Below are positions 2,229-64,000 of a stretch of 64,000 nucleotides of DNA, in pieces. Made by a program: the position numbers and the translations under genes. This DNA is from Prevotella sp. GTDB lineage: Bacteria; Bacteroidota; Bacteroidia; Bacteroidales; Bacteroidaceae. How positions within the stretch are numbered: position 1 is the stretch's first letter; each line of letters opens with the position of its first letter. The stretch spans positions 1 to 64,000 of the forward strand of contig JAFSNR010000189.1 of NCBI GenBank assembly GCA_017443345.1, read 5' to 3'. The notes beneath the pieces were generated by a model that saw only the letters and a program-made list of their open reading frames with translations, did no database searches and was not told the origin of the DNA.

Positions 2229-2248
2229 ATTAATAAGGTATAAGTGAA

Positions 2249-4311: not shown

Positions 4312-4318
4312 AAAGAAG

Positions 4319-4350: not shown

Positions 4351-4375
4351 GCAGTCTCTTTTTACGGGGATTCTC

Positions 4376-4621: not shown

Positions 4622-4652
4622 AATAGTTGCTTTATTAAAGAATGTCAGCTTG

Positions 4653-47609: not shown

Positions 47610-47611
47610 AG

Positions 47612-48037
47612 TTACACTTGTTCGAATTTGATTTCACGTAGCATTGTCTTGATGTCCTCCGAGGGCCTGTAGAGCAGTCGGCAGCTCTTCACCTGTTGGG
47701 CGGAGCACCACTTGCGCGGGTCTTCACCCTCCTTGTAGCCCGGACGCTTCTGGAAGTTCTCCACGCTCCAGCCTTCCGAACTGATGCCAACCTTGAATGT
47801 TCCCAGTCCCTCCACCTTGATGGGGTGACCGTTGCACAACTGTTCCTTGATCTGTTTCAGGACACCGTCGAACACCATGGCGACATGTGCCTCCTCGATG
47901 CCCGAGTCCTGTGCGGCATGCTGACAGAGCACGTCTGCCTTGATCTCAAGTCCCTGTTTCACCCTGCCGTACCATTTGTTGTAGGCAGTGGTCTTGTCGT
48001 TCTTGTTCTGATAAACACTGATCATTACTTTTCCCAT
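47612..48037 (-). CDS. HU-like DNA-binding protein
   Basis: 141 residues, paralogous to its downstream neighbour (shared NGHPIKVEGLGTFKV). It lacks the acidic tail and ends at KFEQV. It is first in a three-gene operon (HU-like, HU-like with tail, smalltalk) and may form a heterodimer with the tailed protein (inference). Confidence 0.82.
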   Translation of the reverse strand: MGKVMISVYQNKNDKTTAYNKWYGRVKQGLEIKADVLCQHAAQDSGIEEAHVAMVFDGVLKQIKEQLCNGHPIKVEGLGTFKVGISSEGWSVENFQKRPGYKEGEDPRKWCSAQQVKSCRLLYRPSEDIKTMLREIKFEQV

Positions 48038-48085
48038 AATGTCTCTTTTTTAATGAATAAATGTCTGCGCGCGCATTTTCGGTGG

Positions 48086-48117
48086 CAAAGGTACAAGGAG
48101 AAAAACCACCCTGCAAG
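48086..48117 (-). promoter_or_regulatory. HU-like operon promoter
   Basis: Minus strand: near-match -33 CTTG (48114-48117), 20-base spacer, -7 TACCTTTG (48086-48093), about 50 bases before the start. Confidence 0.65.
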
Positions 48118-48182
48118 TGGAACACGGCTTTTCTTCTTTGAACGAAGGTTAATGTTGTTCCCAGTCCGGTTTGATGTGCGAG

Positions 48183-48257
48183 GGCATCCGAAAACAAGTG
48201 CGACGGCAGTCAAAAGCAAGTACGACAGCCCACCTCCCGCACTTGTTTTCGTATGCC
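48183..48257. repeat. 20-bp inverted repeat with internal direct copies
   Basis: Arms 48183-48202 and 48238-48257 are reverse complements with one mismatch; the inner 14 bases are perfect (CGAAAACAAGTGCG). A third copy of the motif AAArCAAGTrCGACrGC lies in the same direction as the left arm at about 48212-48228. Confidence 0.8.
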
Positions 48258-48281
48258 GTTGCATATTATTTTCGGAAAAGA

Positions 48282-48313
48282 TTTGGTGGTTTCAGATATT
48301 TCCATTAATTTTG
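48282..48313 (+). promoter_or_regulatory. Rpn-type gene promoter
   Basis: -33 TTTG (48282-48285), 20-base spacer, -7 TAATTTTG (48306-48313). Confidence 0.7.
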
Positions 48314-48353
48314 CACCCGATAAAGCTTTTGTGATATTTTAAATTGTAACACT

Positions 48354-49223
48354 ATGAGTAAAATGATGAAAACGAAAGGAGAAAAGACAATGAAAGGTAA
48401 GTATCTGAATCCCAAGGCAGACCTGACGTTCAAGTTACTGTTCGGTGAGCATCCCGATCTGACGATGAGTTTGTTGAACGCTCTGTTACCTTTGCCAGAG
48501 AACGGACTAATTACGAGCGTCGAGTATGCTACGCCAGAGATGGTGCCTGAGAATCCTGCCAAGAAAAACAGCGTTGTTGATGTACGCTGCAAGGATCAGC
48601 AGGGACGCCAGTTCATTGTGGAGATGCAGCTATACTGGAGTGATGAGTTCCGCCAGCGTGTCATCCTGAATGCCTCGAAGGCTGTAGTGAAACAGTTAAA
48701 GAAGGGGGAGGATTACACACTTATTCAGCCTGTCTATTGTCTGAACCTCATCAATGACATTGGTTTCGAAAGTGCCCCTGATGACTTTTATCACGACTAT
48801 GCTATTGTCGATGTAGCGCATACGGACCGTATCATTGAGGGACTTCGTCTTGTCTTTGTCGAGTTGCCGAAGTTCAAGCCCAAGAGCATTTCCGAGAAGA
48901 AGATGGCCGTACTTTGGTTGCGTTATCTGACAGAAATAGATGAAAGCACAAGTGAGGCCCCCGCAGAACTGCTTGAGAACGAGGACACGCGCAAGGCTTT
49001 GGAGATTGTCGAGAAGTCTGCCTTTACCGAGGGTCAGCTTTATGCTTACGAGCAGTTCTGGGATGCTATCGTCAATGAACGTGTGCTTCGTCAGAAATCA
49101 TACAGGGAAGGCATGACAAAAGGCATTGCCCTAACAGCGGCGAAGTTGAAGAAGAAGGGTATGGCTATAGAGGATATAGTCGAGGTCACAGGACTTACGG
49201 AAGAAGAAATCAATAAATTGTAA
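48354..49223 (+). CDS. Rpn-family PD-(D/E)XK nuclease / putative transposase
   Basis: 289 residues. The N-terminal NPKADLTFKLLFGEHPDLTM and the active-site region VVDVRCKDQQGRQFIVEMQ (Asp, then Glu-x-Gln) mark the PD-(D/E)XK transposase_31/Rpn group. These proteins promote RecA-independent recombination or act in phage defence in other bacteria. The C-terminal part is a helical region ending in a small HTH-like segment (IEDIVEVTGLTEEEINKL). It lies just outside the proposed invertible segment, followed by a terminator. Internal ATGs at 48363 and 48390 are alternative starts. Confidence 0.85.
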   Translation: MSKMMKTKGEKTMKGKYLNPKADLTFKLLFGEHPDLTMSLLNALLPLPENGLITSVEYATPEMVPENPAKKNSVVDVRCKDQQGRQFIVEMQLYWSDEFRQRVILNASKAVVKQLKKGEDYTLIQPVYCLNLINDIGFESAPDDFYHDYAIVDVAHTDRIIEGLRLVFVELPKFKPKSISEKKMAVLWLRYLTEIDESTSEAPAELLENEDTRKALEIVEKSAFTEGQLYAYEQFWDAIVNERVLRQKSYREGMTKGIALTAAKLKKKGMAIEDIVEVTGLTEEEINKL

Positions 49224-49228
49224 ATCAT

Positions 49229-49260
49229 CCGAGCCGCTCCTAATCAGGGGCGGCTTTCTG
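49229..49260 (+). terminator. terminator of Rpn-type gene
   Basis: GCCGCTCC (49231-49238) pairs with GGGGCGGC (49245-49252, one wobble pair), then TTTCTGTT. Confidence 0.7.
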
Positions 49261-49286
49261 TTCGCAGCTGATATATGACATTATTG

Positions 49287-49306
49287 ATAATGTACCTGTA
49301 CATTAT
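49287..49306. repeat. 20-bp palindrome near the switch
   Basis: ATAATGTAC, two central bases, GTACATTAT. It lies 47 bases outside the left inverted repeat; it could be a protein-binding site. Confidence 0.55.
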
Positions 49307-49352
49307 TTTATATATATTATAATACCAGTATAAAGAAAGTAATGTTGCTTAA

Positions 49353-49378
49353 TCCTATTACGGATAGGAGTTCCTATT
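49353..49378 (+). repeat. left inverted repeat (IRL) of candidate DNA switch
   Basis: 26 bases that are the exact reverse complement of 50529-50554. It contains one full 17-base unit (TCCTATTACGGATAGGA, itself an interrupted palindrome), a GT spacer and the first seven bases of a second unit. Confidence 0.9.
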
Positions 49379-49386
49379 TTAAAATG

Positions 49387-49418
49387 CAAATTTATGTTAT
49401 TTTCTTCATATTTGCAAA
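49387..49418 (-). promoter_or_regulatory. outward promoter inside the switch
   Basis: Minus strand: -33 TTTG (49415-49418), exactly 20 bases, -7 TAAATTTG (49387-49394). Transcription would begin around 49381 and run left through the inverted repeat, away from all nearby same-strand genes. After inversion the boxes would map to about 50489-50520 and face the DUF3575 gene. Confidence 0.7.
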
Positions 49419-49483
49419 TATTTTGATGAAAAAGCAACTTGTCTAAACATTAATTAACAAATGCAAGGGCTATACAGATAACT

Positions 49484-50461
49484 TTATCTGATTGCCCGAC
49501 AGACAATCCTGCTGGCTTCGTGTAACTGACAGTCTTCTATTTCCCTGATGTAAATGAGGGTAACATTGGGGTTGGAATGTCCCAGCGCCCTGGAGATGAC
49601 GTTGATGTCGACCCCGTTCTTGTAGGCAATGCTGGCCCAGGAATGACGCGGTGTGTATGAAGTGAGGTGCACGTTTTCGCCGAGACTGGCTGAGATCCTT
49701 TTCAGGCCACGCATGTATTTCTGGTAGAACCTCTTGTACTCACGCATGGCCTTTTTGGGATCTTTCTCTGTCAGGACAGGAATGAGGTAGATGGAGTCGT
49801 CATCCATGAGCTCCTCCAACAGCGTGGCCAGTTCCTCTCCAATTTCTATCGTGATCTTACGGTGAGTCTTGTGGCGGTAGTAGGTGATGACTCCGTCTTT
49901 CAGTTGCGATTTCTTCAGGAACAGCGCGTCAATAAGCGGGATCCCCATTCCGTAGAAACAGAACAGTGAGATACGGCAGTACAGGCCATCCCTTTTTTTC
50001 AGGCTGTTCCTGATACCCCATAGTTTTCTGAAGCACTTTTCGTTTTCTGCCCTTTTCTCTGACGGGGTGACGGATGTGCGGACTTTTTTGAAGAGTTCCC
50101 TGCCCCTGTCGCTGAATCTGTTGATCAACGAGCGCAGGCAGCGCATCTGCTCTGATACATAGCCAGGTTTCTTGCCACTATTGAGCAGCCAGCGTTCGAA
50201 GGCCCTGATGTGATCGGAAGTGACGTTCTGGATTGACAATGAAGACTTGCCTTTCATCGTTTCATTGATGAAGCGTTCAAACGAGTTGACGGCAGTGACG
50301 TTGTTCTTCGTTGAACTCTCAGAAAGACATGGGCGGGTATCCTCGATTTCCTTTCTGAGTCTGTCGACCAATGGTTCCCCTGTCTGGTAGCTGGGCAGGA
50401 ACCAGTTCCTTACTATGGCTGCAAAGTCCATGTTTGCTTGATGTGGATAGTTATTCATCAT
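49484..50461 (-). CDS. tyrosine recombinase (candidate invertase)
   Basis: 325 residues. A SAM-like core-binding domain (about 15-115) precedes the catalytic domain. Catalytic residues visible: the Lys region in YYRHKTHRKI, Arg272 in SYTPRHSWA, His295 in RALGHSN and the Tyr304 nucleophile in TLIYIREI. The first-box arginine is not obvious: the segment reads CFYGMGIPLIDALFLKK where relatives often have an Arg beside GM. Bacteroidota relatives include integrases and the invertases of surface-gene promoters. Its location between inverted repeats and next to a fimbrial operon favours an invertase. Confidence 0.85.
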   Translation of the reverse strand: MMNNYPHQANMDFAAIVRNWFLPSYQTGEPLVDRLRKEIEDTRPCLSESSTKNNVTAVNSFERFINETMKGKSSLSIQNVTSDHIRAFERWLLNSGKKPGYVSEQMRCLRSLINRFSDRGRELFKKVRTSVTPSEKRAENEKCFRKLWGIRNSLKKRDGLYCRISLFCFYGMGIPLIDALFLKKSQLKDGVITYYRHKTHRKITIEIGEELATLLEELMDDDSIYLIPVLTEKDPKKAMREYKRFYQKYMRGLKRISASLGENVHLTSYTPRHSWASIAYKNGVDINVISRALGHSNPNVTLIYIREIEDCQLHEASRIVCRAIR

Positions 50462-50487
50462 TTTTGAATAGATTGATTTAAACGTGG

Positions 50488-50495
50488 CAAAGATA
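50488..50495 (-). promoter_or_regulatory. -7 box of the recombinase gene
   Basis: TATCTTTG on the minus strand, 27 bases before the start and inside the segment, so the recombinase keeps its promoter in both orientations. No good -33. Confidence 0.6.
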
Positions 50496-50518
50496 CAAAA
50501 AAAGATTTGATTATGCAG

Positions 50519-50554
50519 TCCTATCCGTAATAGGAACTCCTATCCGTAATAGGA
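50519..50554 (-). repeat. right inverted repeat (IRR), two tandem 17-bp units
   Basis: Two copies of TCCTATCCGTAATAGGA (50519-50535 and 50538-50554) separated by AC. Bases 50529-50554 match the left repeat exactly in inverse orientation. The right site therefore has one more nearly full unit than the left site. Confidence 0.9.
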
Positions 50555-50620
50555 GCACAAAAAAGGCAGGCAGGGCATGGCCCCCTGATTGAATAGGACA
50601 GATTAAAAAGTAACATTTTG

Positions 50621-52495
50621 ATGAATATAGTGAGATGTTTGATTGTGATTGTGGCTGTACTGGCCTGCGGGCCGGTACGGGCACAGTCCATGTCAGACAC
50701 GCTCAGCATCCGCTTCCGCATGGACAGCAGCCGTGTCGACCTCGGATACGCCGACAACGCAAGGGCATGGGAGACTTTCTCACGCAATTTTCAGGACCGC
50801 TATTCAATCATGTCTCCCCATACCTTGCGTCTCGATATCTACAGCGGTGCCTCGCCTGAAGGCACTGCCGCCTATAACCGCCGGCTGGGAGAGAGCCGCG
50901 GCCTCGCCATCAGCGCCTTCGTCCGTCAGCAGCTGGGCAGCCGCATGGGCTGTATCGTCGTCCATAACGAGGCAGCCCGTTGGGACGGGCTCTACCAGTT
51001 GGTGGCCGCGAGCCGTGAGCCGTGGCGCGACGAGGTGCTCCGCATCATCGCCATGCCGCCGTCGGCCAGCGACAACCAGCGCGACCACCGCGAGTATAAG
51101 CTCCGTCAGTTGCGCGGAGGCAGTGTCTGGCCCGTGCTGCAGGAGAACTATCTCGCCCCGCTGCGCAGCGGGGCCACTGCCATCCTCTCCTGGCAGCCGG
51201 GCCGCGACACGGTCATCGTCCGCGACACGGTCATCATGGCCGTACCCGTGGTCTACCCGAAGAACCTGGTCTTCGCCGACAGCATCGGCGATCTCTACCG
51301 TACCAAGGACAGTACGCGCGTCCACAAGCCGGTCCAGCGCTGGCCGGCGTGGATCGTCCGCTCGAACATCCTCATGCTCGCCACGGCCACGCCCAACCTG
51401 CAGGTCGAGTTCTCGCTGGGCCATAAGGACAAGTGGAGCCTCAATATCGAAGGCGCCTGGTCGTGGTGGACCTTCGCCTACAACGGCTATGCCAATGAGA
51501 TCATATACGGCAGCGTGGAGCTGCGCCGCTGGCTTGGCCGCCGCTATCGCCATCACACCCTCGACGGTTGGCATATCGGCCTGGGTGTTGGCGGCGGCTA
51601 TGGCGACGTGGAGTGGCGCTCGAAAGGTTATCAGGCCGAGGTGTTCTCAGGCTTTGTCAACATCGGTTGGCAGCGCCGTTTCGGGCGACGTAAGCAGTGG
51701 TCGTTTGATATGGGTATTGGCTTGGGCTACGCCTACGTCCCCTGGCGCCGCTACGATGGATCGACCATCTTTCCCGTCGGTCATGAGGAGGAGCACGACG
51801 ACCACCTGATGTGGCAGGAGACGAGCCGCACGAACTGGATAGGCACACCGCACCTGAACATCTCCATCGGCTACGTCTTTGGCCAGCATGATGCGCGCTG
51901 GCGACGGGAACGGGCGATGGAGCGCGATGCCGCACGCAACGACTACCTCCACTTCCGCGACTCTCTGATAGCCCGTGAGCAGTATGTGCGCGACAGTACG
52001 AAGACAGCAGAGAAGCTGCGCCTGAAGGAGATAGATCTTCTGCCGAGGGCCGAGCGCCGACAGGCCCTGAAGGATCTGGCCGCCGAGAAAAAGCAGGCGA
52101 AGGCCGACGCCAAGGCGGCAAAGCGTCAAGAGAAGGTCGACGCCAAAGCCCAGAAGCGGCAGGAGAAGACCGACCGCCGCCTCCGCAAGCAGCAGGCCAG
52201 AGCTGAGAAGGCCGCACGGAAAGAACAGCTGAAGGCCGAGAAAGCCTTTGCCCGTACACCCGAGGGCAAGGCCGCCGCCCGTCAGGCCAGGATCGACAAG
52301 AAGGCTGCCGACCGCCAGGCCCGTATCGATGCCAAGGCCCTGAAGCAAAAGCAGAAGATGGCCAGGCGTCAGGCCAAGATCGACAAGAAGGCCGAGCGTG
52401 TACGTCAGCGCATCGAGTTCGAGCACCGCCGCAACCTCGAGAAACTGAAGCGCGAGATGGAGCGAGCAGATGAGAAATATAAAAACATCAAGTAG
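50621..52495 (+). CDS. OmpA-like/DUF3575 outer-membrane protein of pilus locus
   Basis: 624 residues. The ATG at 50621 is preferred over a TTG one codon upstream; signal peptide to about residue 22 (CGPVRAQS). Residues about 28-110 resemble an OmpA-type peptidoglycan-binding domain (LDIYSGASPEGTAAYNRRL). Residues about 220-430 fit the DUF3575 beta-barrel. After about residue 440 comes a Lys/Arg/Ala-rich, repetitive coiled coil to the end (units like RQARIDKKAADRQARIDAKA). DUF3575 genes usually open Bacteroidales fimbrillin operons. No promoter is visible between the right inverted repeat and this gene. GC content is much higher than in the first 50 kb. Confidence 0.85.
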   Translation: MNIVRCLIVIVAVLACGPVRAQSMSDTLSIRFRMDSSRVDLGYADNARAWETFSRNFQDRYSIMSPHTLRLDIYSGASPEGTAAYNRRLGESRGLAISAFVRQQLGSRMGCIVVHNEAARWDGLYQLVAASREPWRDEVLRIIAMPPSASDNQRDHREYKLRQLRGGSVWPVLQENYLAPLRSGATAILSWQPGRDTVIVRDTVIMAVPVVYPKNLVFADSIGDLYRTKDSTRVHKPVQRWPAWIVRSNILMLATATPNLQVEFSLGHKDKWSLNIEGAWSWWTFAYNGYANEIIYGSVELRRWLGRRYRHHTLDGWHIGLGVGGGYGDVEWRSKGYQAEVFSGFVNIGWQRRFGRRKQWSFDMGIGLGYAYVPWRRYDGSTIFPVGHEEEHDDHLMWQETSRTNWIGTPHLNISIGYVFGQHDARWRRERAMERDAARNDYLHFRDSLIAREQYVRDSTKTAEKLRLKEIDLLPRAERRQALKDLAAEKKQAKADAKAAKRQEKVDAKAQKRQEKTDRRLRKQQARAEKAARKEQLKAEKAFARTPEGKAAARQARIDKKAADRQARIDAKALKQKQKMARRQAKIDKKAERVRQRIEFEHRRNLEKLKREMERADEKYKNIK

Positions 52496-52498
52496 AAT

Positions 52499-53878
52499 AT
52501 GGCAAGGAAAAAGAAATATACGAAACCGTTCCGCGAGAGTGACCGGAATTACCTGTTGGAGGACATCCTGCTGGTCGTCCTGGTAGCGACGTTCGTCTTC
52601 GTCCTGCTGATGCTGGCGGGCTGTGAGCGCCGCGAGCTCTACGTCTACGGCGACGAGTTCCACTCGGTAGAGCTCGAGGTCGACTGGCGCAGGTACGCCG
52701 ACCGCGACCCCGACGGTATGACCGTCTGGTTCTATCCCCTCGACACAGAAGGGACGGTTCTTTCTGTGCACAAACCTTACCGCACGACGACGGCCAACGT
52801 GCGTCATCACGACCTCTACCTGCCCGGCGGTTACTATCAGGGTGTCGTTGTCGACTATTCGCCTGAGGAATTCTCCCGTCAGGAGTTCCTGAGTCTGGAG
52901 CGCATGGATTCTGCCCGCGTGGAGGCGACACCGTCGTCTTACCAGCCCGACTCGCTGACCGTGGCGGGCGAGGGAGTACCCAAAGGAATAAGCGACGAGG
53001 TCAACTGGCAGCTCTATGGCGAGCCAGCGTGGACCGACTATCAGTATCCGCGTCCGCCAGTCCGTGAGGCGACGGGTCTCTACGAGGTGGCCAACCAGCC
53101 CGAGGAGATGGCACTCGACACGCTCGACAACCGCTATGTGGACCGCGGCGAGTACGGTGACTACATCCCCTGGCAGGAGCGCGAGACCTACCAGTCGCAG
53201 ATCAGGCTGACGCAGATGTATTCCGAGCCCGAGACCATCGTCTGGAAGCTGCGCATCCGCGTGTGGGTCAGGGAGGGGTTCAACTACCTCTGGCAGTCGC
53301 CTGCGAGCATCAGCGGACTGGCCGACGGCCATTTCCTGCCGCGCGACGTCATCACGGACAACCCCTGTCTGCTCTCGATCGACAACTGGGAGACCGAGCG
53401 CACGGGCGAGAACAGCGGGTACATCTCCGCGACGCTCAACGTGTTCGGCATCCGACCCGTGACGCTCCGTCCCGACCGAGAGGAGCACGAGGGCAGGGAG
53501 GTGCAACAGGTCTACAGCTACACCCGTGCCGGTGAGTCTGAGCCCGAGTGGTGGGAGTACTATACGAAGAACTGTCTGCCCGAGGACATCCGCCTGAACC
53601 TCTCGTTCGTGCTGCGCGACCATGCCACCACGCTCCACTACCACTTCAACGTGGGCCACTATGTCGTCTCGTGGGACAACCAGCTCGTGCTCCGCATCGA
53701 GCTCGGCCCCGAGTTCTTCGACCCGAATAACCCGCACGGGGCCAACGGTGAGGGCGGCGACCCCGGCAACCCGTCGCCCGACATCAAGTTGCCCTTCGTC
53801 GAGGCCTACAACGGAACGGGCTTCGGTGCCGACGTCACCCCCTGGGTGGACATGCCCCCCGTCGACATCTCGTTCTGA
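52499..53878 (+). CDS. DUF5119 domain lipoprotein
   Basis: 459 residues, 3 bases after the preceding gene. CERRELYVYGDEFHSVELEV directly after the lipobox is the DUF5119 signature, found beside fimbrillins in Bacteroidales. Unusual: the lipobox (LAGC, Cys42) is preceded by a 23-residue charged stretch before the hydrophobic core, a long n-region for a signal peptide. The rest is beta-rich. It is probably a pilus assembly or accessory component. Confidence 0.85.
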   Translation: MARKKKYTKPFRESDRNYLLEDILLVVLVATFVFVLLMLAGCERRELYVYGDEFHSVELEVDWRRYADRDPDGMTVWFYPLDTEGTVLSVHKPYRTTTANVRHHDLYLPGGYYQGVVVDYSPEEFSRQEFLSLERMDSARVEATPSSYQPDSLTVAGEGVPKGISDEVNWQLYGEPAWTDYQYPRPPVREATGLYEVANQPEEMALDTLDNRYVDRGEYGDYIPWQERETYQSQIRLTQMYSEPETIVWKLRIRVWVREGFNYLWQSPASISGLADGHFLPRDVITDNPCLLSIDNWETERTGENSGYISATLNVFGIRPVTLRPDREEHEGREVQQVYSYTRAGESEPEWWEYYTKNCLPEDIRLNLSFVLRDHATTLHYHFNVGHYVVSWDNQLVLRIELGPEFFDPNNPHGANGEGGDPGNPSPDIKLPFVEAYNGTGFGADVTPWVDMPPVDISF

Positions 53879-53938: not shown

Positions 53939-56044
53939 ATGAGAAAGATTTATTTGTTTGCAGGTCTGGCCGCCATGCTGCTCGCCTCCTGCTCCAGCAA
54001 CGACAAGCTGGATTCAAGTCCGACTCCCCAGCAGCCCGAGGTCGCTGCCGCCGGAGAGATCCCAGTCGGCTTCGACATCTACACATCGAGGCCTACAACA
54101 CGTGCAGGTGTTAATACCGAGATGACAACCGCTACGTTAGGAGCAGTTCCAGGTGCGGGAAACGAGAGTAAGGCTGGTTTCGGTGTGTTTGGTTACTACA
54201 CCGACAACAAGGACTACGATCAGTTGGCACTGCCCAACTTTTTCTACAATCAACAGGTCTATGCCAAGACCAACGCAGGAGAGTTTGAATACGAGCCTGT
54301 CAAGTATTGGCCCAATGAGTATGGTAGTACTGCTACCAGCGATGACAATGACAAAGTTTCATTCTTTGCCTATGCACCCTATGTCGTTGTGAATACATCA
54401 AATGGAAAAGTTGAGAAAGAGAACGAGGACGATGACAAATGGGGTATTACCCAACTGAGCCGCAATACTGCAAGCGGTGATCCGATTGTAAAGTATATCA
54501 CGTCGTTTGACAACTCAAAAGCTGTGGATCTTTGCTGGGGTGTATGTGAGCAGGATAATTGGACAAATATCAATAATGGTCAGAAACAGACCTTCGACCT
54601 CGGAAAGCCATGGCTTGATGTTCAGCGCCCATCAACTATCGACCAGAAGTTGAAGTTTACCTTCTATCATGCTTTGGCCAAGATGAATGTCCAGATTGAT
54701 CATTTCACGGATGATACAAAAAGCGGTAACGATCTCGAAACCGCAACACGTATTTTCGTACGTAGCGTACGCTTCAACGGTATTGCCCAACAGGGAGCAC
54801 TCAATCTGAACAATGAGACACCTCGCAAGCCTTATTGGATGAACTATAACGGTGTGGGTGACCTTGAGAGTGATGGTGAGCTTATTGTCTATGATAAGCG
54901 TCGTGATGGCAAGGAGGCCATGGCCAATGCCAATGCTACTAACGAGAAGTCAACAGGTTTGAATCCACAACTCATTCAGGATGAGAACACTCTTAACGGA
55001 ACAGGGTGGGCAGTTGGTGGCCACACAGGAGTGACAAAGACCCTTCAGCCTCTGTTTAATGGAACAGGTACATTCTATGTTATTCCTGTCGAAGGAGAGG
55101 AAATTGAGGTTGAGATTGTCTATGATGTGGAAACGGTAGACGCTAACCTTGGTACGACTTTGGCTGACGGTAAGACCCCTGGTTCTAGTATCGAGAACCG
55201 TATCTCCAAGAAGATTACCTTTGGTTCAAGTACGAGTATTGAGGCTGGAAAGTCATATCAGATCAATCTTCACCTTGGCATGAACTCTGTAAAGTTCGAT
55301 GCGGCTGTGATGGGTTGGGATGAGATGGCATCTCCCGATGTCGACCTGCCTGCTAATTTGGTTCAGTTTGCCGCTGGTGCTTCAGGAACAAAGGCTAATG
55401 CTGATATTCTTGGTTCTGACCTTAACTATATCTTCGCCGTTACAGGATTGGTTGGTGGAGAAGCTGTTACAGTAATAGATGGTACGAAGTTAACTGGAGG
55501 TGCAGCTTGGAGTAAGGCAGACTGGGCTACCGGTGCAGGACAGGCTAACGCAAGTGGAGTCGTTTATGTAAAGGCTAACCATGCTGCCTATAAGGGTGTG
55601 AAGCATACAACTGCTGCTGATGATATCAAGGTATCAAGTGCAAGTGGTAAGGAGGTTACTCTGACCTTACGTGAACTGGCAGTGGCTCTTAACCTTATCG
55701 GTGGTACCTCTACAGCAACCGGAACCACTGTTACACTCGTAACAACTGCAGATACGGAAGTAGGTACAGACTGGCTTACACTGCCTACAGGCTCTACTGC
55801 AGGTACCGTCTGGGATGATGTTAACAAGAAGTGGAATGATGACACGATGGTACGTGTTTGGGTTAACGGCGCAGAACTTCAGTATGTTACTGGCGCCCCC
55901 ACGGCAAACAGTAACGAGTTTACAATTAATGCTGCAACAGGTGTCATTACACTTGGTACGGCTTTGACAGCTGGTGACAGTGTGAAGGTATACCTAAAGA
56001 CTGGTGACGTAGCTGGTGAGACCATCACTATTGCTGCTACTTAA
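53939..56044 (+). CDS. fimbrillin family protein with extra C-terminal domain
   Basis: A 701-residue lipoprotein (LLASC, Cys18). Mfa/FimA-like fimbrillin features: IPVGFDIYTSRPTTRAG (arginines 51 and 55), FGVFGYYTD, YWPNEYGS and SFFAYAPY. The fimbrillin part ends at about residue 470 (HLGMNSVKFDAAVMGW). A further 230-residue Thr/Val/Gly-rich region of unknown fold follows. The first 150 bases are GC-rich like the neighbours; the remainder is markedly AT-richer. Confidence 0.88.
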   Translation: MRKIYLFAGLAAMLLASCSSNDKLDSSPTPQQPEVAAAGEIPVGFDIYTSRPTTRAGVNTEMTTATLGAVPGAGNESKAGFGVFGYYTDNKDYDQLALPNFFYNQQVYAKTNAGEFEYEPVKYWPNEYGSTATSDDNDKVSFFAYAPYVVVNTSNGKVEKENEDDDKWGITQLSRNTASGDPIVKYITSFDNSKAVDLCWGVCEQDNWTNINNGQKQTFDLGKPWLDVQRPSTIDQKLKFTFYHALAKMNVQIDHFTDDTKSGNDLETATRIFVRSVRFNGIAQQGALNLNNETPRKPYWMNYNGVGDLESDGELIVYDKRRDGKEAMANANATNEKSTGLNPQLIQDENTLNGTGWAVGGHTGVTKTLQPLFNGTGTFYVIPVEGEEIEVEIVYDVETVDANLGTTLADGKTPGSSIENRISKKITFGSSTSIEAGKSYQINLHLGMNSVKFDAAVMGWDEMASPDVDLPANLVQFAAGASGTKANADILGSDLNYIFAVTGLVGGEAVTVIDGTKLTGGAAWSKADWATGAGQANASGVVYVKANHAAYKGVKHTTAADDIKVSSASGKEVTLTLRELAVALNLIGGTSTATGTTVTLVTTADTEVGTDWLTLPTGSTAGTVWDDVNKKWNDDTMVRVWVNGAELQYVTGAPTANSNEFTINAATGVITLGTALTAGDSVKVYLKTGDVAGETITIAAT

Positions 56045-56049
56045 TGACA

Positions 56050-56121
56050 TTTTCTCACAACGGGGACAGTCTTGCGTCCCTACGGTAGCAAGCGGCAGAG
56101 CCGAGCGCCCCGTTGTGAGAT
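56050..56121 (+). repeat. long hairpin related to the REP-like family
   Basis: TCTCACAACGGGG near 56051 pairs with CCCCGTTGTGAGA ending near 56121. An inner CTTGC/GCAAG stem follows. It starts six bases after the fimbrillin stop and shares TCTCACAACGGGGAC with the element at 59712-59742. Confidence 0.75.
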
Positions 56122-56177
56122 TCTCTGCATGAAAAGTTGTTATTGGTTTAATGTTTTTCGATTCATGCACCTTGACC

Positions 56178-56235
56178 CCGGGAGAAAGGGGTGGGCGGGT
56201 TTTCGTTATTCACCTGCCGCCCCTCCCGGATTTTT
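56178..56235 (+). terminator. strong hairpin with T-run between two fimbrillin genes
   Basis: CCGGGAG (56178-56184) pairs with CTCCCGG (56223-56229), with further G-rich/C-rich pairing inside (GGGTGGGCGG with CCGCCCC), followed by ATTTTT. It lies about 20 bases before the next start, so it may partly terminate transcription. Confidence 0.65.
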
Positions 56236-56255
56236 AAACATCAAAACAGTTAGGA

Positions 56256-58202
56256 ATGACTAGTAAGAAGTTCATATTCAAGGAAAACAAGCCTACATCC
56301 GGGGAGGAGTTGGCTGTATTCGGGAAAGTGAAGCACATCTTCAAGGAAGAGGAACGCGTGCTGAACGTCCTGCAGCTTATCATCTACGCCATGGGAGTCA
56401 TGGTGGTCCTGTTGGGAATTGCGATGATCACGGTGATGCTGACCAGCTGTTCGATCATAGACGAGGATACCAGCGACTGCCCGAAGGACAGCGTGTCGGC
56501 CGGATCCAGGTCGGGCAGTGCCATCGCCTTTTCAGTCGGCGACAGCACTGCCGCGACCCGCACGGCTGAGGGCACGATGACCCTCGACGGCGCGGACGGC
56601 ACGGAGAGCCTGCGCTCGTGGGGCTTCGGCGTCTTCGCCTGTCACACGGGTGCACACCCCTACATCAGCACCTCGACGAAGAGCAACCTGATGCACAACC
56701 AACTGGTCACCTGGGACAACGTGAACAGCGTGTGGGCGTATGAGCCGCTGGTCTACTGGCCCAACGGTACGACGGGCGACGCGGACTTCGTCACCTTCTT
56801 TGCCTACGCCCCGCACAGCGACAATGCCTCAGACTGTATCGTCGACATGTCGCGTCCCGACGAGGTGGGCGACCCCTGGATCCTCTACCAGCTCGGTGGT
56901 ACGTCTAATGCCGACGGCGCCAGCGGATGGAAGGCCAGTCAGGTCGACCTGCTCTATGACTTCAAGAAGGACCAGCAGCGCGGGGCGACTCCCGACGTAC
57001 GGGTGAGCTTCGACTTCAAGCATGCCCTGGCCTGTATCGGCGACCGGATCACCGTCAGCTGCGACGAGAGTGTGAAGACCCGTCTCAAGGGTGTCTACAC
57101 CCTGTCGGACGTCGAGCTCACCGTCACCCGTCTCACCTTCGACTACCAGCTTACCCGCAAGGGCCGGCTGGTGCTCAACAATAGCAGTCAGCCCAACTGG
57201 CAGGCCGTCGAGTCGGAAGATACCAAGGTGCATCGCACCCTCGTTTTCACCCCCGACCTCGTGATGGCCCGCGCCACCTCGCGGGATGCTGCCACCACGA
57301 CGGATTTCGACTCCGGCAGCGGCCACGGCATCTTTTATATCCCTATCGAGAGCGGCAACACCAAACAGCAGGTGACCGTCACAGCCGACTATACCGTGAC
57401 CTCCGGCGATCCCACCGAGATGCTCGACGAGGGGAGCGTGAGCACGGACATCGACCTGAGCTTCGTGCATAATGCCAGTGAGGGCCGCAACATGGCCATC
57501 ACACTCCGGATTCCTGAATCCGAGTGTAGCGGAACGCCACTCAACGGAGCCGCCCTCGGACAGATCATCTGCTCCCACGGACGGGCCCATGCCGCTACCG
57601 ACGGAGCCCTCAGCTGTGGTGGAGAGAAAGTGGCAGTTGTGGCCTACGTGGGTGACGCCAGTGGCGAGACCAGTCCCTTCAACCACGGCTTGGCCATCGC
57701 CCTGCAGGATGCCGACGCCTATGCCTGGTGCAGTCAGAAGGCTGAGACCTGTCTCGAAGCGCAGGCCGGCGACCTCGCCTCGGCCCTCGCCACCGTGAAC
57801 GGCCTTACTGCTACAGCCCTTCTCGTGGCCGACGACGCGCACTTGCATACTGCCGCCGTTGCAGCCTACAACTACCGTTTCGACGGCGCGGTGCGATCGG
57901 GTGCCCATCCGGCGGGCACGTCGCGCTGGTTCCTGCCCTCCATGGGTCAGTGGAACCTGATGGTGAAAGCCATCGCCGACAGTGATACCGACCTCTCGGG
58001 AAACCAGAATGCCGACTACAAGGCTACAGCCATCAGCCCGTTCTTTACGGATCGCGGTGGCGACGCACTGCAAAGCGCTCTCTACTGGTCCTCGACCGAG
58101 AAGAGCACCTCCGATGCCTGGTATGTCAGCTTCGAGAACGGCAAGGCCCAGGGCGGCGACAAGGATAAGACGTACCGCGTCCGTCCCGTACTGGCGTTTT
58201 AA
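56256..58202 (+). CDS. fimbrillin-like lipoprotein with lectin-like C-terminal domain
   Basis: 648 residues. The lipobox LTSC is at Cys65, after a 40-residue charged n-region and a long hydrophobic helix, which is unusual. The fimbrillin-like part carries ATRTAEG (Arg102), WGFGVFACHTG, YWPNGTTGD and TFFAYAPHS. From about residue 430 a different domain appears. Its end, SRWFLPSMGQWNLMVKAI, then LYWSSTEKS..AWYVSFENG and YRVRPVLAF, matches the DUF1566/C-type-lectin-like fold seen at the tips of Bacteroidales adhesins. It is a candidate pilus tip adhesin. No reverse transcriptase is nearby. Confidence 0.8.
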   Translation: MTSKKFIFKENKPTSGEELAVFGKVKHIFKEEERVLNVLQLIIYAMGVMVVLLGIAMITVMLTSCSIIDEDTSDCPKDSVSAGSRSGSAIAFSVGDSTAATRTAEGTMTLDGADGTESLRSWGFGVFACHTGAHPYISTSTKSNLMHNQLVTWDNVNSVWAYEPLVYWPNGTTGDADFVTFFAYAPHSDNASDCIVDMSRPDEVGDPWILYQLGGTSNADGASGWKASQVDLLYDFKKDQQRGATPDVRVSFDFKHALACIGDRITVSCDESVKTRLKGVYTLSDVELTVTRLTFDYQLTRKGRLVLNNSSQPNWQAVESEDTKVHRTLVFTPDLVMARATSRDAATTTDFDSGSGHGIFYIPIESGNTKQQVTVTADYTVTSGDPTEMLDEGSVSTDIDLSFVHNASEGRNMAITLRIPESECSGTPLNGAALGQIICSHGRAHAATDGALSCGGEKVAVVAYVGDASGETSPFNHGLAIALQDADAYAWCSQKAETCLEAQAGDLASALATVNGLTATALLVADDAHLHTAAVAAYNYRFDGAVRSGAHPAGTSRWFLPSMGQWNLMVKAIADSDTDLSGNQNADYKATAISPFFTDRGGDALQSALYWSSTEKSTSDAWYVSFENGKAQGGDKDKTYRVRPVLAF

Positions 58203-58264: not shown

Positions 58265-59710
58265 ATGAAGAAGATTTTTTTGTTCGGAGCAGTGATGGCA
58301 GCCATGACGCTCGCCTCATGCTCAAGCAGTGATGACAGCCAGCAGGCTGCCGACAACGGTAAGGCCCCCGTCTTGGCCACTAAGACAGCCATCGGCTTCG
58401 ATGCCTACACCGGCCGCGCCGTGACCCGTGCAGGTACTACCGGTGTACTCGATCTGACTGCTCTCCAGACAGTATCGACTGGCGGCTTCGGTGTATTCGC
58501 CTACTACACCGACCTGAAGAAGTACGACCAGACTTACGTACCCAATTTCATGTACAACACCCATGTCAGCTATGACGGTACGAGTGCATGGACTTACTCT
58601 CCTGTGATGTACTGGCCTAACGAGTACGGCTCCGATGCGCAGAGCGACGACGAGGACAAGGTGAGTTTCTTCGCCTACGCTCCTTGGGTAGAGACAGGCT
58701 CGGCTGCTGCAGGTAGCGTTTCTGGTGATGCCACCTGGGGTATCACGGGTTTCTCACGTAATACCAATGCTGGCGACCCGATGGTGAAGTATATCGCCTC
58801 GTTTGATCCCGCCAAGTCCGTAGACCTCTGCTGGGGTGTCGTTGGAGACTCAGAGGCCGAATGGGGTAAGATCCAGGGCAACACAAACCAGACCCTGACA
58901 GTGGGAAAGCCCTGGCTCGACGTGGAGCATCCGAAGGGTGTTGACCAAAAACTGAAGTTCACCTTCAAGCACGCCTTGGCCAAGCTCAACGTACAGATTG
59001 ATGCCGACATCGACAACGCGACTCATGGTGCAGGCAGTGAGGTCGCCGCTGAAACCAAGATCTACGTGCGCAGCATCTCTTTCACTGGTATCGCTATGAA
59101 AGGATCGCTCAACCTGAACAACGCTACGGCAGGCGTAGCCCAGTGGCTGGACTACTCAGGTTCTACCGATCTTCCTTATGGCGAGAGTATTACCGTGAAG
59201 GACCAGCGCCGTGATGGTCGCGAGGGTGGCTCAGGTGCTGAAGCTACCAATGAGTTGCCTGGTGGTCTGAATCCTGCTATCATCCAGACGGATGCGGTAA
59301 CCCCAGGTGTGGTCAAAACTGCAGTGAACCTCTTCAAGCCAGTTTCAACGATCGCTGATCCTGAAAATCCCACTGCAGGAGAGATTGCTGCCCAGCTGGC
59401 CGATGCAGTCTATGTGATTCCTACTGGTGAGGCTATGACCGTGACCATCGTCTACGATGTGGAGACTACCAATGAAGATCTGCCCACCTATATCAGCAAT
59501 GGTACTACCCACGGCTCGAGCATTGAGAACAGAATTTCAAAGCAGATCACGTTCACACCGGCTGGCGGTCTCGTCAGCGGCAACACCTACACTGTGAAAC
59601 TCCATCTCGGCATGAACACCGTGAAGTATGAGGCTGCAGTCACAGGTTGGGAAGGTGAGGCAATTAACGGTGAGGGCTGGCTGCCATCCAACACTCCCGT
59701 AGAGCCTTAA
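58265..59710 (+). CDS. fimbrillin family protein
   Basis: A 481-residue lipoprotein (LASC, Cys19) consisting of a fimbrillin alone. It has AIGFDAYTGRAVTRAG (arginines 51 and 55, aligned with the paralogues), GGFGVFAYYTD, MYWPNEYGSD and SFFAYAPWV; near the end HLGMNTVKYEAAVTGW. It is the simplest fimbrillin of the operon and a candidate main shaft subunit. Its composition is less GC-rich than the genes on either side. Confidence 0.88.
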   Translation: MKKIFLFGAVMAAMTLASCSSSDDSQQAADNGKAPVLATKTAIGFDAYTGRAVTRAGTTGVLDLTALQTVSTGGFGVFAYYTDLKKYDQTYVPNFMYNTHVSYDGTSAWTYSPVMYWPNEYGSDAQSDDEDKVSFFAYAPWVETGSAAAGSVSGDATWGITGFSRNTNAGDPMVKYIASFDPAKSVDLCWGVVGDSEAEWGKIQGNTNQTLTVGKPWLDVEHPKGVDQKLKFTFKHALAKLNVQIDADIDNATHGAGSEVAAETKIYVRSISFTGIAMKGSLNLNNATAGVAQWLDYSGSTDLPYGESITVKDQRRDGREGGSGAEATNELPGGLNPAIIQTDAVTPGVVKTAVNLFKPVSTIADPENPTAGEIAAQLADAVYVIPTGEAMTVTIVYDVETTNEDLPTYISNGTTHGSSIENRISKQITFTPAGGLVSGNTYTVKLHLGMNTVKYEAAVTGWEGEAINGEGWLPSNTPVEP

Positions 59711-59766: not shown

Positions 59767-62700
59767 ATGAACAAGAAAATATTGTTTTACCTGATGATGT
59801 CGGTGCTGATGGTGGGCTGTGCCGCCGGTGACAGTGAGTCGCTGGGCGACAAGCCGCCCGTCGGGGCGACCTCCGACGGCAAGTACGCCGTGGGCTTCAA
59901 TGCCTACGCCAACCGTGCCGTCACCCGCGCCGGATATGCCGGTACGCTGACGATCGACCAGCTGCAGCAGGCGCAGGGCGACCTCGGCGGCTTCGGCGTG
60001 TTCGCCTACTACACCGACCTGAAGAAGTACGACCAGACCTACATCCCGAACTTCATGTACAACCAGGGTGTCTTCTACAGCGGAGGCAACTGGCAGTACA
60101 CGCCCGTGATGTACTGGCCGAACGAGTACGGCTCCGACGCGGGCAGCGACGACGAGGACAAGGTGACGTTCTTCGCCTATGCCCCCTACGTCCACCACAG
60201 CTCTCCCGCCTCGGGCAGTGTCGACGGCGAAGCGTCCTGGGGCATCACCGGCTTCTCGCGCAACACGACGGCGGGCGACCCCATCGTGAAGTACATCGCC
60301 TCGTTCGATCCCACAAAGAGCGTCGATCTCTGCTGGGGCGTCTGCGACCAGGCCTCCTGGAACAGGATCCAGAATAACGGCTCACAGTCGATGACCACGG
60401 GTCTGCCCTGGCTCGACGTAGAGCACCCGAAGGGTGTCGACCAGAAGATGACGTTCACCTTCAAGCATGCCCTCTCGCAGCTCAACGTCCAGATCGATGC
60501 CGACGCCGACGGGCTGACCCACGATGCCAGCGGCGACATCGCCGACGGTACGAAGATCTACGTGCGCTCGATCTCGTTCACGGGCATCGCCCTGAAAGGT
60601 GCGCTCAACCTGAACAACACCGTGGCCAACAAGGCCCTGTGGCTCGACTATGCCGGGACCACCGACCTGCCCTTCGGCGAGAGTGTCACCGTGAAGGACG
60701 GTCGCCGCGACGGCCGTGAGGGTTCGGCGAATGCCGAGGCCACCAACGAGATCCCGTCGGGTCTCAACGATGCCATCATCCAGAACAGCTCTGCGACGGC
60801 CGGTGTCACCCACACGGCGGTGAACCTCTTCAACTCCAATGATCTCGACAAGTGCGTCTACGTCATCCCGACGGGTGAGAAGATGACCGTCACCATCGTC
60901 TACGACGTGGAGACCACCAATCCCCACCTCTCTACCTATATCAGCGACGGTACGACCCACGGCGTGAGCATCGAGAACAAGATCACCAAGGACATCCTCT
61001 TCGGCGGTGCCACCAGCGGACTCGACTGCGGCAAGAAGTACACTATCAAGCTCCACCTGGGCATGAACTCCGTGAAGTTCGATGCCGACATTACGCCTTG
61101 GGACGACGGCGACGTGGTCAACGGTGAGGGTTGGCTGCCGGGCAACCTGGCCATCGACGCCCCCGTGACCCTGAGTCTCGGCTCGAGCCTGACCATGGCC
61201 CTCAACGGTGGCGCACAGACGCTGACCGCCACCACGCAGCCCGCCGGACAGACCGTCAACTGGACGAACAGCAACGACGGTGTGGCTACCATCGCGGCAG
61301 CCGGAGGCGGAACGCGCGGTGAGGTCAACGGGGCCTCGTCGATCACCATCACACCGGTGGCTGCCGGTACGACCATCATCACCGCTACCTCGGCAGCCGG
61401 TTCGGCCCAGTGCGCCGTCACCGTGACGACACCGTCGACGCCCGACGTGACCGTCTCGCTCAACAAGACGAGTACCACGGTCTACGCCACCGAGACCGAA
61501 CAGCTCACGGCGACCACCTCGCCTGCTGACAGACCCGTCACCTGGGTATCGTCGAACACCGCAGCGGCTACGGTCAGCAACGCGGGTCTCGTGACTGCCA
61601 ATGCGGCCGGTCTGACGCATATCACCGTCACCACCGAGTCGGGTCATACGGCCACCTGTGACGTCACCGTCGTTCCGACAGTGCTCTCGCTCGACAAGAC
61701 GAGCCTGTCACTCAATGCCAGTGAGTCGTACACCCTGACAGCTACAACCACGCCGATCGGCAAGACCGTGACCTACGAGTCCAGTGCACCCACAGTAGCT
61801 TCCGTCAATGAAAGCACAGGTCTGGTGACTGGTCTGACGGCTGGTACGGCCCGCATCACGGCTACCATCCCCGGCGGCGGTTCGGCCACCTGTAACGTCA
61901 CCGTGACGGCCAATGCCGCTACCGTCACCACACCGCCAACGGCCATCACGCCGCTCACCTATACAGGCAGTCCGCAGGCGCTGGTCAATGCCGGTACGGC
62001 TGCGAACGGCACGATGCAGTATGCTACCGGCAACAGTTCGGCGGCTACCTCTGCCTGGTCGGCCTCCATTCCTGAGGGCACGGGTGCAGGCACCTACTAC
62101 GTATGGTATAAGGCTGCGGGTAACTCCGGCTATACCGACAGTGCGCCCGACAAGGTATCTGTGTCCATCGCCAAGGCAGCCGGTACGATCAGCTTCGCCA
62201 CCGGCAGCTACAACAAGACGGTGGGCGATGCCGGCTTCACGCAGGTCGTGACGAACTCTGGCGACGGTGCTGTGACCTACTCTACGAGTAACTCCAGTAT
62301 CGCTGATGTCAACAGTTCTACCGGAGCGGTTACCATCGGTTCAACGACTGGTACGGCAACGATTACCGCCACCGTCACCGACGGCGACAACTACAGCTAC
62401 GCCGTGACGACCGCCACCTATACCGTAACCGTCAGCAGCAAGCCCGCCGCCACCCTTGACAGTGCCCCGACGGCCAAGGAGCTCACCTACAGCGGTTCGG
62501 CACAGGCACTGGTCAATGCCGGTACGGCTACTGGCGGAACGGTGAAGTACGCCAAGGGCACTAACTCGGCCGCATCGGAAAGCTACTCGACGAGCATCCC
62601 CGAGGCAACCGACGCAGGCGACTACTACGTATGGTACTATGTGGAGGGCGATGCCAGTCATAGCGACACGGCTCCCGACAAGGTGGCTGTGACTATGGCC

Positions 62701-63057
62701 AAGAAGGCGGCCACCATCAGCTTCGGCACTGCTTCTTACAACAAGGAGATTGGTGAGGCCAACTTCACGCAGGCTGTCACGAACACCGGTACTGCCGGTT
62801 CGGTGGAATACTCCATCACGAAGGGAACCACCGACGCTGAGGTCAACACGACGACGGGTGAGGTGACCATCGGCTCCGCAGCCGGTACGGCTACCGTCAC
62901 GTGTACTGTAACCGACGGTGCGAACTACACGTACGCCACAAAGACGGCCAGCTACAACATCACCATCACGGCACCGCCTTCACCGACGGCATCGCCGAAT
63001 GTGGGCAACTGGACCGATGGCGGAAGCGGTGACCTCACCCCTGATAAGACTTTGTAA
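59767..63057 (+). CDS. fimbrillin with stacked Ig-like domains
   Basis: A 1096-residue lipoprotein (MVGC, Cys18). Residues about 1-460 are a fimbrillin close to the preceding gene (arginines 50 and 54 in NRAVTRAG). Residues about 465-715 hold three Big_2-type bacterial Ig domains. Residues about 717-895 and 896-1066 are two copies of a longer repeat resembling MBG-type modules (LTYTGSPQALVNAGTA and LTYSGSAQALVNAGTA; both have TYYVWY/DYYVWY and a TISF strand). A Pro/Thr/Gly-rich tail closes it. The repeats suggest a stalk or host-contact role. Confidence 0.87.
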   Translation: MNKKILFYLMMSVLMVGCAAGDSESLGDKPPVGATSDGKYAVGFNAYANRAVTRAGYAGTLTIDQLQQAQGDLGGFGVFAYYTDLKKYDQTYIPNFMYNQGVFYSGGNWQYTPVMYWPNEYGSDAGSDDEDKVTFFAYAPYVHHSSPASGSVDGEASWGITGFSRNTTAGDPIVKYIASFDPTKSVDLCWGVCDQASWNRIQNNGSQSMTTGLPWLDVEHPKGVDQKMTFTFKHALSQLNVQIDADADGLTHDASGDIADGTKIYVRSISFTGIALKGALNLNNTVANKALWLDYAGTTDLPFGESVTVKDGRRDGREGSANAEATNEIPSGLNDAIIQNSSATAGVTHTAVNLFNSNDLDKCVYVIPTGEKMTVTIVYDVETTNPHLSTYISDGTTHGVSIENKITKDILFGGATSGLDCGKKYTIKLHLGMNSVKFDADITPWDDGDVVNGEGWLPGNLAIDAPVTLSLGSSLTMALNGGAQTLTATTQPAGQTVNWTNSNDGVATIAAAGGGTRGEVNGASSITITPVAAGTTIITATSAAGSAQCAVTVTTPSTPDVTVSLNKTSTTVYATETEQLTATTSPADRPVTWVSSNTAAATVSNAGLVTANAAGLTHITVTTESGHTATCDVTVVPTVLSLDKTSLSLNASESYTLTATTTPIGKTVTYESSAPTVASVNESTGLVTGLTAGTARITATIPGGGSATCNVTVTANAATVTTPPTAITPLTYTGSPQALVNAGTAANGTMQYATGNSSAATSAWSASIPEGTGAGTYYVWYKAAGNSGYTDSAPDKVSVSIAKAAGTISFATGSYNKTVGDAGFTQVVTNSGDGAVTYSTSNSSIADVNSSTGAVTIGSTTGTATITATVTDGDNYSYAVTTATYTVTVSSKPAATLDSAPTAKELTYSGSAQALVNAGTATGGTVKYAKGTNSAASESYSTSIPEATDAGDYYVWYYVEGDASHSDTAPDKVAVTMAKKAATISFGTASYNKEIGEANFTQAVTNTGTAGSVEYSITKGTTDAEVNTTTGEVTIGSAAGTATVTCTVTDGANYTYATKTASYNITITAPPSPTASPNVGNWTDGGSGDLTPDKTL

Positions 63058-63082: not shown

Positions 63083-64000
63083 ATGGAAAAGAAAGAAAAA
63101 ATGATCAAGAGGAGCGTCCTCGGCTCCATGGCTGCTCTGGCAGTCATGGCAGTCGTGGGTTGCGCCGAGGAGGTGACACAGATATTCTCCGACAGCACGA
63201 AGGTCGAGGTGACGGCCTCGTTCAGCGACACTGGTCGGGAGTCGCTCACCCGTGCTGCCGACGGTCTCGATAACAGTACGGCCGGCTTCAGCCTGACCAC
63301 ATCGGAGAGCAGCAGTTCAAAGGTGCGCGTGATGGTCGATGCCAACGACGGCACCTACTCGCCGTTCGACTATACCATCACCAATGCCACGACGATTACG
63401 GCTCCAGCCACACCACCGTCGTTCCCCTCTGGTGTCAGCACCGTTAACGTCTACGGCTGGTATCCCAATGTCAGCCTGACTAACTTCTCAGTGAATGCCA
63501 ATCAGCAGTCTGAGGCCAACTACTGTCTGAGCGACCTGATGGTGGCCAACAGTGCTACCTGTACCCGTAGTGGCAGCAGCGTCACCCAAGCTGCCAACCT
63601 CAGCTTCACCCACGTCATGTCGAAGGTGAAAGTGTCGCTGACATTGGCATCAGGTGTGACGGTGACAGCTGTGAAACTGAAGAGCATTCTGCCTCAGGTG
63701 ACCGTTTCCGAGGTGAAGTCCACAAATGCCGTGACCGGCTTCAACCTCAGTGCAGCTAGCGGTAGTGCCACCGACATTACTCTGTTCAGCGGTTCGCTGA
63801 CATCTGCCTCTGATGCAGCCGACAAGGTACTGTGCGGTGTGTTCCCCCCTCAGAGTAAGAACGGTGCATTCCTGGAGATCAATGCCAGCTACAACAGCGG
63901 TGCTGCCCAGACTATCACCTACAGTTTCGGCTCTGCCAAGGCATTCGCCCGTGCCAATGAGTACACGATGAACATCACGCTCAACGGTACGAACGTCACC
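63083..64000 (+). CDS. fimbrillin-like lipoprotein, 3' end outside window
   Basis: 306 codons are open to the window edge. It starts MEKKEKMIKRSVLGSMAALA with a lipobox at Cys27 (VVGC). RESLTRAADG (Arg57) resembles the conserved arginine region of the other fimbrillins. VNVYGWYPN and a Ser/Thr-rich beta pattern continue to the edge. It is 25 bases after the preceding stop and probably another subunit of the same pilus. Confidence 0.75.
   Translation, partial: MEKKEKMIKRSVLGSMAALAVMAVVGCAEEVTQIFSDSTKVEVTASFSDTGRESLTRAADGLDNSTAGFSLTTSESSSSKVRVMVDANDGTYSPFDYTITNATTITAPATPPSFPSGVSTVNVYGWYPNVSLTNFSVNANQQSEANYCLSDLMVANSATCTRSGSSVTQAANLSFTHVMSKVKVSLTLASGVTVTAVKLKSILPQVTVSEVKSTNAVTGFNLSAASGSATDITLFSGSLTSASDAADKVLCGVFPPQSKNGAFLEINASYNSGAAQTITYSFGSAKAFARANEYTMNITLNGTNVT

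Follow-up and report, generated by a model that had tools for sequence, protein, structure and literature searches.

A predicted invertible promoter enclosing its recombinase gene precedes a Prevotella pilus operon with a diversity-generating retroelement at its end

We analyzed a 64,000-nucleotide stretch of Prevotella sp. DNA (assembly GCA_017443345.1, contig JAFSNR010000189.1, positions 1 to 64,000), hereafter the window, with a focus on a 1.2-kb segment at 49353-50554 and the fimbrial operon that follows it. The segment is bounded by inverted repeats, encloses a tyrosine-recombinase gene and carries an outward-pointing promoter motif, and together these make it a candidate phase switch. 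On its left lies an Rpn gene. The operon on its right encodes three proteins with PF13149 together with a DUF3575 and a DUF5119 protein, the content of a type V (Mfa/Fim-like) pilus operon, and a type V pilus is the product predicted from these genes. The contig extends 5.8 kb past the window, where the marks of a diversity-generating retroelement (DGR) were found. The features are collected in Table 1.

Table 1. Features of the segment, the pilus operon and the downstream retroelement. Coordinates are those of the window, continued past its end for the last rows.
Feature	Position	Strand	Remarks
Hairpin after Rpn gene	49231..49256	+	Fold; absent from the list of the terminator scan
Left inverted repeat	49353..49378	+	Putative recombination site; core 49353-49369 plus half-site
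Phase promoter (predicted), TTTG-N20-TAAATTTG	49387..49418	-	8 bp inside left repeat; directed away from the operon as assembled
Tyrosine recombinase, presumed invertase, 325 amino acids	49484..50461	-	PF00589 E 2.6e-14; PF13102 E 2.3e-6
Recombinase gene -7 box, TATCTTTG	50488..50495	-	33 nt inside right repeat; weak -33 (2 of 4)
Inner second copy of 17-bp core	50519..50535	-	Exact match, in tandem with outer core; also a partial repeat in the repeat search
Right inverted repeat	50529..50554	-	Outer putative site; core 50538-50554
DUF3575 protein, first operon gene	50621..52495	+	Domain match
DUF5119 protein	52499..53878	+	Domain match
Fimbrillin-like lipoprotein	53939..56044	+	No Pfam match; phmmer homologues in related operons also match other pilins
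Fimbrillin (Mfa_like_1), Lcl_C-like C-terminus	56256..58202	+	Lcl_C below Pfam cut-off
Fimbrillin (Mfa_like_1)	58265..59710	+	Pfam
Fimbrillin-like protein with Big_2 repeats	59767..63057	+	Pfam and phmmer homologues
Last pilin gene (Mfa_like_1)	63083..65158 (63083..64000 in window)	+	Carries DGR variable repeat 65029-65153
bAvd	65653-66036		Outside window; E 2.4e-14
Reverse transcriptase	frame 65634-67205		Outside window; RVT_1 E 5.5e-20

The initial annotation had described perfect 26-bp inverted repeats around a tyrosine-recombinase gene and, 8 bp in from the left repeat, an outward-pointing Bacteroidota consensus promoter with boxes 20 bases apart, and our analysis recovered all of these to the base. 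The two arms are 100% complementary and separated by 1150 bp. By comparison, 100 first-order Markov shuffles of 48200-52000 gave no exact inverted repeat longer than 14 bp, and the next longest exact one anywhere in the window is 18 bp. Both repeats contain a 17-bp core that is nearly palindromic (TCCTAT-5-ATAGGA), the form expected of a tyrosine-recombinase site. This core is present twice in tandem on the right side and once, with the additional half-site, on the left, and the inner of the two right copies is a possible alternative crossover site. Within its own genome (4.16 Mb, 204 contigs, 92% complete) the core was found three times when up to two mismatches were allowed, always at this locus, while the backward control gave none, and the switch therefore looks local and dedicated. 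Among viral contigs a single core match was observed (contig L138), but the open reading frames (ORFs) of that contig are unrelated to those of the window and the match was judged to be chance. A palindrome, AATGTAC-N2-GTACAT, was also seen at 49289-49304; by eye, the window, L070 and L113 (three of the four loci described below) each have it ~40-50 bp beyond their left repeat.

The ORF enclosed by the repeats belongs to the tyrosine recombinase/phage integrase family, with a PF00589 domain and the catalytic residues K198, R272, H295 and Y304; these K, R, H and Y columns are invariant in all 61 rows of our recombinase alignment. The canonical Arg I is lacking: where 4a8e (XerC-like) has the R of 'GLR', the aligned residue is Pro175, and this column has P in 50 of the 61 rows and S, N or A in 11. 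Because IntDOT of Bacteroides is likewise said to be without Arg I, its absence does not exclude activity of the predicted enzyme. Relatives of the recombinase were found in 70 of 200 genomes of the genus at E ≤ 1e-20 and in 25 of 398 at E ≤ 1e-46 (own genome included), while a family-level search at E ≤ 1e-50 returned only the query itself (1 of 301).

To find loci with a comparable layout, we inspected 20 stretches around the best matches of the E ≤ 1e-20 genus search for operon genes and repeats, and a single scan of named genome contigs supplied 28 loci, 23 of which were inspected for repeats (L081, L092 and L095-L097 left out). A recombinase gene between inverted repeats, placed before a fimbrillin operon, was observed at four loci: the window, L034 (genome G088), L070 (Bacteroidaceae bacterium Tb.RUG.125) and L113 (genome G260). 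The repeats are exact at each (26, 21, 21 and 30 bp, respectively), and both the recombinases and the repeats have diverged, with the enzymes of L034 and L070 being 40.5% and 47% identical to that of the window. The repeat of L034 is also present at L071 (uncultured Prevotella sp. RUG069). The four segments end 39-66 nt before the first operon gene, always in the same orientation. Their left neighbors are an Rpn gene in the window and L113, a symporter-like gene in L070 and a MurF/alanine-racemase-like gene in L034 (the last two by eye), each of which ends facing the segment. The window, L034 and L070 recombinases form one clade (SH-aLRT 100) in the 61-row tree, which also includes L054-L063, loci used for the tree but not for the layout. 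Searches with the DUF3575 gene, which led to L113, found homologues in 5 of 100 relatives at E ≤ 1e-30 and, within the genus, in 17 of 398 genomes at E ≤ 1e-60 (own genome in both), and all 18 recombinase-free homologous operons that were found (L114-L131) served as controls; no recombinase ORF of this family was observed in their fetched stretches.

The orientation of the promoter was compared between these two groups. Counting both strands, the 64 kb contain 8 copies of the full promoter motif (spacing 19-21), which corresponds to ~0.004 expected per 60-nt slot. As the initial annotation had stated, no promoter is visible before the pilus operon as assembled: the TAnnTTTG box is absent from the operon strand in the 250 nt preceding 50621, and a scan for E. 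coli-type promoters gave a single match (9/12), which spans 50603-50631 and overlaps the start codon. Flipping the segment between its outer repeat ends gives, by arithmetic, the -7 box at 50513-50520 that had been predicted, which starts 108 nt before the ATG. Every locus was then examined for a TAnnTTTG box on the operon strand in the 250 nt preceding the DUF3575 start codon. Such a box was found in none of the four recombinase loci as assembled and in all four when inverted in silico, while 15 of the 18 controls carried one (Fisher p 0.0048 against the 0/4), compared with 9.6% of base-composition shuffles; a good -33 in addition was present in only part of the 15. The inverted boxes start at -108 (window), -93 (L070), -95 (L113) and -80 (L034), with -33 matches of 4, 3, 4 and 4 of 4, respectively. 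Two of the control misses (L114, L115) have another gene that ends 7-8 nt before the DUF3575 gene, with a promoter motif before that gene.

At the level of the consensus, then, inverted repeats bound a promoter-bearing segment and a promoter precedes the target operon in one orientation only, as in an inverton. The position of the promoter is also conserved, with its -7 box ending 8-16 nt from the distal repeat in all four loci, and transcription should therefore start in or at the recombination site. The -7 box of the recombinase gene lies 30-33 nt inside the proximal repeat in all four. Bound recombinase could affect both promoters, and the two right-side cores could permit two ON forms whose leaders carry one or two cores. 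The hairpin behind the Rpn gene is a possible stop for the outward transcript.

At the far end of the operon, the variable repeat (VR) of the last pilin gene matches a template repeat (TR) at 65453-65574, and all 15 mismatches between them fall at TR adenines (P 1.6e-8). On the strength of these adenine-specific differences, together with bAvd and the reverse transcriptase (RT), these features are the marks of a DGR that targets the last pilin gene. After the RT come a 184-amino-acid protein whose MutS_I match is weak (E 0.018, below cut-off) and a second TR-like copy at 67829-67960. No clear template match was found in the four earlier pilin genes of the window genome, and Rfam gave no match on L134, the stretch in which this DGR occupies 2029-4960. 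A second RT in the same genome (G000:C128, 3220-4290) is 40% identical to the one at the operon end.

DGRs were observed on the operon contigs of two of the other loci as well. In L070 (contig L152) 22 of 22 mismatches fall at TR adenines and the RT is 64% identical to that of the window genome, while in G260 (contig L153) the values are 15 of 18 and 38%. L152 also has weaker second and third targets, with 16 of 27 (P 0.016) and 23 of 36 (P 0.00015) mismatches at template adenines. An RT on the operon contig was thus seen in three of the four inverton loci and in none of 13 controls (Fisher p 0.0059), in a comparison of small numbers that was made after the first case had been seen, with an RT query from the window genome that could miss distant RTs. 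Five of the 18 controls, with less than 12 kb of downstream contig, had been set aside (L116, L117, L119, L129, L131). The RT ends 16.6, 11.8 and 16.7 kb past the DUF3575 start in the three positive loci, and requiring 17 kb downstream leaves 0 of 9 controls (p 0.014).

Between 50560 and the RT end only two -7 boxes were found on the operon strand, both within genes and with -33 matches of 1 and 2 of 4, and none was found on that strand in the interval separating the last pilin from the retroelement. On the simplest reading, the retroelement too would be governed by the invertible promoter. The intergenic region after the third operon gene (56045-56255) folds strongly, at -76.9 kcal/mol for 211 nt, and may be an attenuator between pilin genes.

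From the repeats, the promoter motif, the gene order, their conservation and the DGR signature, we infer that the enzyme flips the segment, that there are ON and OFF states and that the DGR is co-transcribed with the operon. We consider it very likely that 49353-50554 is a self-contained phase switch in which the recombinase inverts the segment and so turns the pilus operon ON and OFF, with the DGR at the operon end probably active mostly in the ON state. The recombinase would recognize the near-palindromic cores in both repeats and invert a 1.2-kb segment that carries its own gene and a single strong outward promoter at the inner edge of one repeat. In the OFF state, which the assembled orientation is predicted to represent, this promoter would fire away from the pilus operon, toward the hairpin behind the Rpn gene. 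After inversion it would stand ~100 nt before the DUF3575 gene and drive the operon, and the recombinase would retain its promoter in both states. Hypermutation would probably also be largely confined to ON cells, because no good internal promoter is visible. The layout in three further loci, and the promoter evidence from four loci against 18 controls, thus strengthen the invertible promoter proposed in the initial annotation, whose inversion we still derive from these patterns.

Several observations weigh against this interpretation. The opposite orientation was found in none of the four loci, all of which are assembled as OFF; this fits an OFF bias and would fit a slow or locked switch as well. 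No inverted or second junction was found in the window's own assembly. The -7 rule is a consensus and not a mapped start, and one control (L121) has no box upstream, its sole motif match overlapping the called start codon. In L070 the phase promoter has TTGG in place of TTTG, and this -33 overlaps the recombinase ORF, within its 3' end. In the window and L034 the promoter of the recombinase gene has a weak -33, matching at 2 of 4 and 1 of 4 positions, respectively. Finally, the strong fold at 56045-56255 could uncouple the distal genes from the switch, and no RT was found in G088 (L034) at E ≤ 1e-20.

The wider recombinase family bears on how such segments are used. In 10 of the 20 stretches (L035, L036, L038, L039, L041, L044, L045, L046, L048, L053) the recombinase has flanking repeats and stands between two susC genes that diverge from each other, and two more (L037, L042) have flanking repeats with one susC in range. 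The susC-type sites are mostly ACCTC-N7-GAGGT, several with an outward promoter motif between the sites, and the ten loci are candidate two-output toggles. The pilus type appears to be a one-output variant of such a recombinase-enclosing segment. These susC loci show that a two-output layout exists in the family, and both orientations might likewise matter in the window if the outward transcript also acted on the left neighbor, as antisense to Rpn. We regard this as improbable, however, given that the left neighbors differ among the loci, each ending toward the segment, and that in the window Rpn is separated from the segment by the hairpin.

Alternatively, repeats and recombinase could form a small mobile element, a tyrosine-recombinase unit of one gene that inserted ahead of the operon and has no part in its regulation. 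Repeat, gene and repeat do make up a tidy unit, two related genomes carry different cassettes at the same site (see below), and plasmid and phage records gave 57 and 27 matches, respectively, with recombinases up to ~33% identical among the best 20 matches. This origin nevertheless appears most improbable: a second copy is absent from the window's own genome, the segments keep their constant orientation and narrow distance to the first gene of a fimbrillin operon in four of four loci, and each has the outward -7 box just inside its distal repeat before an operon without a promoter of its own. The constant orientation could also mean that the switch is degenerate or locked, formerly invertible and now fixed OFF, or that the operon is driven by an unrecognized or regulator-dependent promoter, and the promoter claims do rest on a consensus. 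This we hold to be very improbable, as the ORFs are intact and the catalytic columns invariant, the repeats are exact at every locus where disuse should bring decay, and the -7 box is at the same place in every locus, its -33 complete at all but L070, where one position differs. An active self-inverting switch remains our preferred interpretation.

The comparison with G260 suggests how such a switch may be replaced. In this genome a repeat-recombinase-repeat unit, arranged as in the window, lies between the Rpn gene and the operon, and the flanking DNA is 88% identical on the left (window 47214-49228) and 75% on the right (from 50630). The recombinase is only 31% identical to that of the window and the 30-bp repeats are unlike the window's; because these lie between such similar flanks, the G260 cassette appears foreign, and we read this as one complete switch having been exchanged for another at a fixed site. 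The G260 cassette has a promoter motif pointing outward at its distal repeat and another one driving the recombinase. A single clade of the four fimbrial recombinases was not rejected (p-AU 0.549), and the tree, where L113 is a long branch (2.22), does not prove the cassette foreign. A search for relatives of the G260 recombinase at E ≤ 1e-70 returned 1 of 398 genomes, only itself. By eye, the Rpn genes of the window (48354-49223) and L113 (7603-8472) have a near-identical promoter, start and last 90 bp but have diverged in between, a pattern such as exchange through gene conversion would leave.

In three of the four loci two variation systems stand on one pilus operon, with the hypermutation genes downstream of the switch. 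To our knowledge, phase variation and DGR hypermutation have mostly been treated as separate systems. We tentatively propose, as an idea that may well prove wrong, that the self-inverting promoter gates the DGR. Since the retroelement makes up the end of the pilus operon, the pilin target would be mutated mainly while the pilus is displayed, and the current version would be stored silently when OFF, so that stochastic display and targeted evolution would form one coupled program, with invertase cassettes that may be swapped at a fixed site. If true, a promoter flip would act as an on/off control of targeted protein evolution, which is a directly testable question. The G260 locus further suggests that a complete switch (enzyme, sites and promoter) may be exchangeable as a unit at a fixed place with its output kept.

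Tyrosine-recombinase invertible promoters of Bacteroidota surface loci were reportedly described in 2004 (Weinacht) and 2007 (Roche-Hakansson). The Hin switch of Salmonella, in which a serine recombinase acts on flagellin genes, also has an invertase gene and a promoter inside the flipped segment, and differs from the present case in the type of its recombinase. For B. fragilis, Tsr19 and Tsr0667 are described as tyrosine recombinases with invertible promoters of surface loci (PMC4747536), and the system here resembles them in its enzyme type, its inverted repeats, the promoter within the flipped DNA and the surface genes downstream. Their recombinase genes, according to that account, lie near or upstream of the invertible promoter, whereas here the gene is inside, and both also act at distant places, whereas the search allowing up to two mismatches gave no site away from the present locus. 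At the Tsr19 locus more or fewer repeats stand between promoter and genes, and their number is reported to run against expression (PMC4747536).

Enclosure of the recombinase gene, which the initial annotation had singled out, has counterparts elsewhere. It is frequent among the relatives examined, given the 10 of 20 stretches with susC genes, and it has a fimbrial precedent in Providencia stuartii, where a recombinase ORF sits inside a putative invertible segment next to a fimbrial locus (PMC5903667, which also names the Salmonella Hin switch). That segment belongs to another phylum, is 844 bp long and has 14-bp imperfect repeats, and the passages describing it mention no retroelement. A survey of gut invertons reports fimbrillin genes to be enriched near invertons, and invertases to be mostly oriented so that the inverton promoter cannot drive them (PMC11892184). 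A search of the literature by full text, with subscription papers mostly outside it, returned no title or abstract opening that describes a DGR combined with an invertible promoter. DGR-diversified type V tip pilins are on record for Bacteroides (Macadangdang 2024, as cited in PMC12632263), and the predicted DGR here likewise targets a pilin of a type V pilus; it differs in the predicted invertible promoter at the operon start, a link not made in the citing account (PMC12632263). Each part is therefore already in print in these sources, namely invertible promoters, an enclosed recombinase, phase-variable Bacteroidota surface loci and DGR-diversified pilins (PMC12632263, PMC5903667, PMC4747536), and the new point is the combination of a predicted self-flipping promoter and a DGR on one pilus operon.

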